From NCBI GenBank assembly GCA_031459855.1, contig JAVKHP010000001.1:2075906-2139905 (forward strand): a DNA stretch of 64,000 nucleotides, written 5' to 3'. A program made the translations under genes and the position numbers. The notes under the pieces were generated by a model, which was given only the letters and a program-made list of their open reading frames with translations, searched no databases and was not told where the DNA came from. Shown here piece after piece: positions 29,880-33,268 of the stretch. Numbering within the stretch: the stretch's first letter is position 1; every line of letters starts with the position of its first letter. This DNA is from Armatimonadota bacterium (GTDB taxonomy: Bacteria; Sysuimicrobiota; Sysuimicrobiia; Sysuimicrobiales; Humicultoraceae).

Positions 29880-30023
29880 CTACTGCACGACCACCCGCCG
29901 GCCCGCCAGGATCAGGATCAGGATGAAGATCGCCAGCGCGACGACGAAGGCGTCGGCCTGGCCATCTTCGCTACCCGCGCGCCGTACAAGCCCGCGGATC
30001 GCGTCGAGCATCCAGATGGGCAT
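29880..30023 (-). CDS. 47-aa single-span membrane peptide, copy 1
   Basis: Not recognised with certainty. The 47-residue product begins MPIWMLDAIRGLVRRAGSED, then GQ, then a very hydrophobic stretch (about 24-40) and the basic tail AGRRVVVQ. A perfect GGAGGTGAG ribosome-binding site lies 5 bp before the ATG at 30023. A homologous gene of equal length lies 160 bp upstream on the same strand (30182-30325), with 34 identical nt at the 3' end and the same last 11 residues. The charged-GQ-hydrophobic pattern recalls the junction in Flp/Tad-type small pilins, but the Glu+5/Tyr+6 motif is absent. Short hydrophobic peptides encoded in tandem also fit type I toxin-like peptides. Function unknown. Confidence 0.7.
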   Translation of the reverse strand: MPIWMLDAIRGLVRRAGSEDGQADAFVVALAIFILILILAGRRVVVQ

Positions 30024-30099
30024 CGGGCTCACCTCCGGACCACCGCGGGCCGGACCTCCGTGGGCGGGACCTCCATCGGCCGTCCACCGGTCGGCCCAC

Positions 30100-30139
30100 G
30101 AGCACACGTGTGCTCTCGGGCACACGTGGACTCTCGGTC
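30100..30139. promoter_or_regulatory. Palindrome with repeated half-site upstream of peptide copy 1
   Basis: A perfect 16-bp palindrome (30100-30115, core CACACGTGTG) is followed by a second copy of its right part. 30103-30120 and 30121-30138 are near-identical direct repeats built on CACACGTG. It sits 77-116 bp upstream of the ATG of the 47-aa peptide gene at 29880-30023 and so is a candidate operator. Confidence 0.4.
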
Positions 30140-30181
30140 AGTCTGTTGTGCGTGGCACAGGGCGGCTACAGCGGTTCCCGT

Positions 30182-30325
30182 TCACTGCACGACCACCCGC
30201 CGGCCCGCCAGGATCAGCCAGAGGACGAAGAGCACCAGCAGCCAGGTGAGGACTTCCTGCCCGCGCTCGTCGCGATGGAAGCGCACCAGCCCTGCACGCA
30301 CGACCTGCTGCAGCCAGAGGATCAA
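30182..30325 (-). CDS. 47-aa single-span membrane peptide, copy 2 (TTG start)
   Basis: Homologue of the peptide at 29880-30023. It begins MILWLQQVVRAGLVRFHRDE, then RGQ, a hydrophobic span (about 24-39) and the identical end LILAGRRVVVQ. AAGGAGG stands 8 nt before a TTG codon (30325), which gives 47 residues, the same length as copy 1. An in-frame GTG three codons earlier lies inside the ribosome-binding site and is less likely. The two copies share GLVR, a GQ just before the membrane span and the whole C-terminus, but differ strongly elsewhere. This indicates an old duplication with selection on the ends. Function unknown. Confidence 0.68.
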   Translation of the reverse strand: MILWLQQVVRAGLVRFHRDERGQEVLTWLLVLFVLWLILAGRRVVVQ

Positions 30326-30900
30326 CGGCCTCACCTCCTTCGACCTTCGACGCTTCGACACTACTCTACCCGGTTCGGGCGTTCGCGCAAACATGCACCG
30401 CGCTGGCGGACACCGCACCACCAGACGCACGGTCATGGGAGCGCAGGCGACCGTAGCCCCGCCAGGCTGCAAGGGGGCGTCGGCCTCCAGCCACGGGCCG
30501 GGAACAGACGACACGACGCCGCGGTGTCCTGGCCGCCTGCGTGCCCGGCCCGCTCCTCATACGGGCAGGCGGCCGCGGGGGTTCCCGGGAGCAAGGCGCA
30601 GGAGGACGTGATCGTGTGGGATCCGTCGCCGAATTGCAGCTCGTGGGCGATGAGCCTGCCGTCCAGCGGGAGCCCGCACAGCGCGCATGGCCGTGTAGGA
30701 TCGGCCATCGCTCGGGTTGCGGAGACCGGTGGGTCCGCGTCCGCGCCCGGTCAGGTGTGGGTTTCCCTGCGGTACCGTGCCCCGTTGCAGGGATCGGCAG
30801 GCTGTGCGCAGGAGATATGGCGCACTGACAGTGTGCCCGGCTGCGACGGCGAGGCGGGCGCCGTGCGTCGGTTGGGGATCCTTGCGTCGGTAAGGGATCC
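30326..30900. other. 575-bp region with at most one weak gene
   Basis: The part next to 30325 is the leader and promoter of peptide copy 2. The only frame with any protein-like content is the minus-strand reading at 30433-30708, listed separately. The right end carries a 19-bp tandem repeat that runs into the M20 peptidase start. Confidence 0.5.
30433..30708 (-). CDS. Possible small Cys-motif protein (91 aa, doubtful)
   Basis: Not a recognised family. The first 40 residues look protein-like and carry a CxxC and a later Cys (CALCGLPLDGRLIAHELQFG, then GSHTITSSC), resembling the start of a small treble-clef or zinc-knuckle metal-binding domain. Codons in this part favour G/C at position 3. The remaining 50 residues are Ala/Pro/Gly-rich and may be out of frame. 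There is no clear ribosome-binding site before the ATG at 30708. It may be a pseudogene or a chance frame. Confidence 0.25.
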   Translation of the reverse strand: MADPTRPCALCGLPLDGRLIAHELQFGDGSHTITSSCALLPGTPAAACPYEERAGHAGGQDTAASCRLFPARGWRPTPPCSLAGLRSPALP

Positions 30901-33061: not shown

Positions 33062-33268
33062 CTAGCTCAACGGCCTGACGTTTGCGGCCTGCGGGCCCTT
33101 CTGGCCCTGCACGACCTCGTACTCGACCTTCTGGCCCTCGTTGAGGGTTCGGTAGCCTTCCTGCTGGATGGCAGAGTAGTGGACGAAGACGTCCTTGCCG
33201 CCCTCGTCCGGCGTGATGAACCCGTACCCCTTCTCCGCGCTGAACCACTTCACAGTTCCCATCGGCAT
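33062..33268 (-). CDS. Cold-shock protein (CspA family)
   Basis: A 68-aa single cold-shock domain with RNP1 (KGYGFI) and RNP2 (DVFVHY) and the usual [16 protein letters not shown] start. It binds single-stranded nucleic acid and acts as an RNA chaperone. A GAGGTGGG ribosome-binding site precedes the ATG at 33268; a second ATG two codons later is also possible. It is a single-gene unit with its own terminator, and the upstream gap to 33538 should hold its promoter and leader. Confidence 0.97.

Follow-up and report, generated by a model that had tools for sequence, protein, structure and literature searches.

Small bitopic membrane proteins of fewer than 60 residues, with one span and a short conserved polar end, act as subunits or regulators, as in the case of CydX-, KdpF- and AcrZ-like proteins. 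Type I toxins such as Ldr/Fst and TisB have a similar size and hydrophobic span, and Flp/Fap type IVb pilins (PF04964) combine a short leader, a (D/E)xGQ motif and one span in a product that can also be encoded in tandem copies, as in one genome of the phylum studied here (G028). The peptides analysed in this work resemble CydX-, KdpF- and AcrZ-like proteins in size, span and polar end, a likeness of description only, with no sequence relation detected. They share with the Flp/Fap pilins the leader, motif, single span, similar size and tandem copies, but differ from them in lacking the E+5/Y+6 residues, in having nothing after the span except RRVVVQ, in giving no PF04964 score and in occupying a different genomic site. 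The difference from the Ldr/Fst and TisB toxins is that they are operonic and vertically inherited, with no antitoxin RNA found. Small bitopic membrane proteins are a kind already known, within which the family with the RRVVVQ tail is undescribed.

The paired mini-genes of the window

The window, that is, the whole stretch of 64,000 nucleotides that was analysed, carries two minus-strand genes of 47 codons, each for a putative small membrane protein, which lie exactly where a preliminary description of this DNA had placed them. Paralogue A (30182..30325, minus strand) has a TTG start and a TGA stop and would encode (M)ILWLQQVVRAGLVRFHRDERGQEVLTWLLVLFVLWLILAGRRVVVQ, whereas paralogue B (29880..30023, minus strand) has an ATG start and a TAG stop and would encode MPIWMLDAIRGLVRRAGSEDGQADAFVVALAIFILILILAGRRVVVQ. 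The strong ribosome-binding sites that had been noted for both genes were borne out by the predicted anti-SD pairing, which reached -12.6 kcal/mol for aaggaggtga upstream of A (30331..30340, minus strand), an element type present 5' of every homologue measured, and -10.8 kcal/mol for ggaggtga upstream of B (30029..30036, minus strand).

Both peptides have the GQ pair described just N-terminal to a single hydrophobic span, and their common last 11 residues (LILAGRRVVVQ) were verified together with the 34-nt tracts that encode them (30184..30217 in A and 29882..29915 in B, both minus strand), which are identical up to the diverging stops. Overall, A and B show 46% identity to each other, compared with up to 60% to copies in other genera. 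The proposal of an amphipathic basic N-terminus held only in part: basic residues are present, but the N-terminus is not net basic, with a charge of +1 and -1 in the two peptides and of about -2 to +2 across the family, and its helical moment is mostly equal to or lower than that of its own shuffles. The AlphaFold2 model, computed with four sequences, contained a helix at residues 3-16 and another at 20-46, with a mean pLDDT of 74 overall and 91 over residues 31-40. The predicted fold would comprise a helical leader and, after it, a single long membrane helix extending through the tail; its topology is ambiguous, given a leader close to neutrality and two arginines in the tail.

The neighbours of the pair are genes for an adenine deaminase and an M20 peptidase, and no promoter or terminator pattern was found around it. 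Between A and B there is a perfect 9-bp hairpin without a T-run (CACGTGTGC-CCGAGA-GCACACGTG; 30105-30128, minus strand), possibly a processing or attenuation element. A 91-codon ORF located 5' of A (30433-30708, minus strand) contains a CxxC close to its start (CALCG...) and matched nothing in Pfam; it could be a gene or a spurious frame. A 68-residue cold-shock protein (PF00313, E = 2e-33) is encoded at 33062-33268 of the minus strand.

A family of putative small membrane proteins in Sysuimicrobiota

When the A peptide was searched against 61 genomes, clear homologues appeared throughout the same order. A family profile was built from 24 copies and 386 genomes were searched with it, 43 of them in the phylum Sysuimicrobiota (CSP1-3) and 343 outside; homologues were detected in 22 of the former and in none of the latter, and those from other genera and families had E-values between 1e-12 and 1e-22. 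The CSP1-3 lineage, the phylum Sysuimicrobiota, consists of one class with one order and is known mostly from hot springs and soils (PMC11604079). One carrier contig, LDXQ01000060.1 of 'Armatimonadetes bacterium CSP1-3', matches G007:C60 in sequence, and this genome was the sole match in an alignment search of genome contigs; the window genome belongs to the same phylum and the same taxonomic family as that genome. No relatives were found in Pfam, NCBIfam, PADLOC or the PDB, and PHROGs gave only weak matches to unnamed entries (best E 0.0058). A mobile or phage origin was rejected, as no relative was found in viral contigs or plasmids.

The homologues share a common layout: about 20 leader residues are followed by a (D/E)x(R/S/Q)GQ motif and a single hydrophobic span, and a (T/A)(G/N)RRVVVQ-type end directly adjoins the stop. 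Of the 19 copies measured, 18 have exactly 17 residues between the acidic residue and the RR pair and one has 16, the C-terminus is near-fixed family-wide as a (R/K)(R/K)VVVQ type, and the glycine N-terminal to the span is kept in at least 90% of 24 aligned copies, G014 being a copy without it. The family can be defined by, and its members were found to have, a length of 44-51 residues, a leader, a hydrophobic span of 16-17 residues, a C-terminus of the form (R/K)(R/K/Q)-hydrophobic3-(Q/R/N) and a strong ribosome-binding site.

Every copy measured is preceded by a GGAGGTG-type ribosome-binding site whose pairing to the anti-SD is predicted at -9.4 to -13 kcal/mol for the best start. Over the last 30 codons of close relatives, synonymous changes clearly exceeded amino-acid changes in the pairs G030/G027 and G030/G024 (8 vs 0 in each), G023/G026 (11 vs 2) and G033/G027 (14.5 vs 1.5), and G020/G032 was less one-sided (7.5 vs 8.5). 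Among the 11 closest pairs, 10 had a pN/pS ratio of 0 to 0.2 and one had a ratio of 0.44. Spurious ORFs are abundant in high-G+C DNA, but a chance ORF was rejected here on account of the homology, the ribosome-binding sites and the substitution pattern, and the broader explanation of chance ORFs or a conserved non-coding element is extremely improbable in view of the synonymous-dominated substitutions, the ribosome-binding sites in all copies, the conserved length and the E-values in other genera. Judged from these comparative data, both mini-genes are real genes, translated-looking and under purifying selection.

By sequence comparison, the two window peptides are members of an undescribed family of tiny, putatively single-span membrane proteins, restricted to Sysuimicrobiota as far as searched. 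Such a family had been proposed in the preliminary description, which named conservation in related genomes as a point on which the proposal could fail; when this was looked at, both the peptides and their ribosome-binding sites turned out to be kept. Annotation often misses small membrane proteins, most of all in uncultured phyla, and the combination of a 17-residue span with RRVVVQ-stop provides a signature for genome annotators.

Gene neighbourhood and possible roles

In 20 of the 22 carrier genomes the small gene is located directly 3' of a gene for an SRPBCC protein (Polyketide_cyc, PF03364, E = 4e-25) with a lipid-binding fold of the START/COQ10/RatA type. This protein is a constant upstream neighbour, apparently on the same transcript, but unrelated in sequence to the peptides and therefore a neighbour rather than a homologue. 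The order continues with a DegT/DnrJ/EryC1/StrS aminotransferase and a Gfo/Idh/MocA oxidoreductase, and is partly cut in a few genomes, such as G001, where the contig ends first. The distance from the SRPBCC stop to the small gene was measured at 19 loci and ranges from -13 to +57 nt in 18 of them, with overlaps in five; a hairpin followed by a T-run was seen by eye 3' of several homologues, ahead of the aminotransferase gene. The SRPBCC and peptide genes thus form an apparent operon.

The two genes also occur separately. The peptide is missing from all ten genomes of f7 that have a close orthologue of SRPBCC, and likewise from the SRPBCC-carrying G002, G003, G008, G009, G015 and G017; in the non-carrier genomes inspected the SRPBCC and aminotransferase genes adjoin with nothing recognisable between them. 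The divergent copy of G013, a genome that is 100% complete, is not near any SRPBCC gene, and this genome gave no SRPBCC match; in G004 an additional copy lies elsewhere, where contig C25 begins. In the SRPBCC gene tree, carriers and non-carriers cluster according to family, f7 having no carriers at all and losses elsewhere being few and scattered, the pattern expected of vertical inheritance with loss.

From the gene, its conservation and its operon-like placement, all found above, we infer a membrane insertion, a partner and a function. The peptide would be a bitopic membrane accessory protein co-expressed with the lipid-binding-type SRPBCC protein, a reading that we put forward tentatively, at somewhat short of an even chance. 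It would be made together with the SRPBCC protein, insert into the cytoplasmic membrane and act there as an anchor or accessory subunit, perhaps holding the SRPBCC protein at the membrane, with the conserved tail or the leader as the contact surface. Docking of this kind would widen the known uses of the SRPBCC system. The SRPBCC protein as partner is uncertain because each gene occurs without the other in some genomes; the link is not obligatory, and the common placement may reflect history rather than physical interaction. The peptide could instead be a free-standing bitopic protein that regulates or stabilises another membrane complex (transporter, respiratory or cell-envelope), the SRPBCC linkage being a mere common transcript. 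SRPBCC is neither necessary nor sufficient for the presence of the peptide, the window pair stands alone, and the constant span length and tail point to a specific protein contact within the membrane; nevertheless, no alternative partner with a conserved neighbourhood was found and four families retain the immediate linkage to SRPBCC, so that this reading is somewhat unlikely. A type I toxin is also unlikely, and a toxin-like hydrophobic peptide repressed by an antisense RNA is given a very small chance: size, single hydrophobic span and the tandem pair in some genomes would suit it, but the peptide is as a rule encoded second in a tight operon, behind a strong ribosome-binding site, in single copy and vertically inherited at one site, showed no relatives in plasmids or viral contigs, and gave no PADLOC match and no match to an antitoxin family among the known RNA families covered by Rfam. 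The toxin-like character raised in the preliminary description has no support beyond size, in view of this fixed, normally operonic position, and the tandem layout, described there as fitting either toxins or pilins, is not typical, most genomes carrying a single copy.

The main rival of the accessory-protein reading draws on a resemblance to pilins. The peptide could be a reduced Flp/TadE-like product with a class III leader that is cut after the conserved glycine by a prepilin peptidase, leaving some 25 residues as the mature form, such as QEVLTWLLVLFVLWLILAGRRVVVQ, which would act as a minimal pilin- or pseudopilin-like membrane peptide. A class III-like leader with a G ahead of the hydrophobic span is indeed a feature of the family, the (D/E)x(R/S/Q)GQ-type motif lies directly N-terminal to the span with its glycine nearly invariant, and hhalign gave, for leader and motif, a probability of 70% versus same-phylum Flp pilins and of 0.5% versus reversed Flp; the window genome moreover encodes one prepilin peptidase and type IV pilus-type ATPases. 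Against this, the alignment to Flp does not extend into the hydrophobic span, an equally high score was reached by one of eight motif-shuffled controls, E+5/Y+6 occur in no copy yet in every true Flp found in the phylum, and no Flp_Fap (PF04964) match was obtained in the own genome at E<=10 or among 24 members at E<=1. No pilus, Tad or prepilin peptidase gene adjoins the peptide genes, the copy of G014 lacks the glycine, and three genomes belonging to a single genus carry the family intact but no detected prepilin peptidase, although they keep PilB-type ATPases, so that the missing enzyme is probably due to incomplete assembly. We consider the pilin-like reading unlikely, and the family was not filed as Flp because E+5 and Y+6 are absent and PF04964 gave no match. 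Of the Flp/Tad-type small pilin suggested in the preliminary description, what stands is the resemblance of the leader and DERGQ motif to class III signals; the absence of E+5/Y+6 and of a link to Tad genes speaks against it. A narrower version, in which the peptides would be phylum-specific prepilin-like micro-peptides made with SRPBCC, with the leader removed by prepilin peptidase and a mature peptide of about 25 residues with the RRVVVQ end in a non-Tad use, is quite unlikely. If true, we would know of no smaller pilin-like product, and a peptide that is a substrate of prepilin peptidase would widen the known uses of that system. The SRPBCC-associated accessory protein is the reading that we prefer. 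With a well-delimited family, comparative evidence for translation and a recurrent operon partner, a function becomes directly testable.

Some further observations were made on Flp proteins and the Tad machinery. A 1.5-Mb region of the window genome (G000) with ATPase-like matches was considered as a possible Tad locus and rejected, as the region consists mostly of response regulators. True Flp pilins are encoded in G028 by four adjacent similar genes (L027; DEQGQGTVEYVLL), in a genome without the peptide family. Flp matches fell mostly in genomes of the phylum without the small family, a distribution confounded by phylogeny, with the clear exception of G014, whose copy lacks the GQ motif.

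History of the tandem pair

Unlike relatives that carry the small gene there, the window genome has no peptide gene at its SRPBCC-DegT-Gfo/Idh/MocA locus (G000:C1:2744039-2744464; L078, L146). Both the SRPBCC protein and the tandem pair are still encoded in this genome, though far apart, with the pair about 0.64 Mb from the empty SRPBCC-aminotransferase home locus. The A-then-B order also occurs in G007, where the two genes follow SRPBCC. The second copy of G001, of B type (L036, G001:C33:26409-26513), runs towards the contig end and, about 200 bases short of it, ends in another sequence without its tail, probably because of an assembly break.

Orthologues are closer to each other (pN 0.17 and 0.29) than paralogues (0.35 to 0.37). 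Therefore, the A/B duplication predates the split of the genera, and the window pair probably left its place behind the SRPBCC gene as one unit. The identical tract of A and B shows zero synonymous differences over 11 codons despite the age of the two copies, so that the identity of the 34 nt is best explained by gene conversion, likely a local event between the tandem copies, whereas the amino-acid identity within the tract is best explained by the family-wide constraint.
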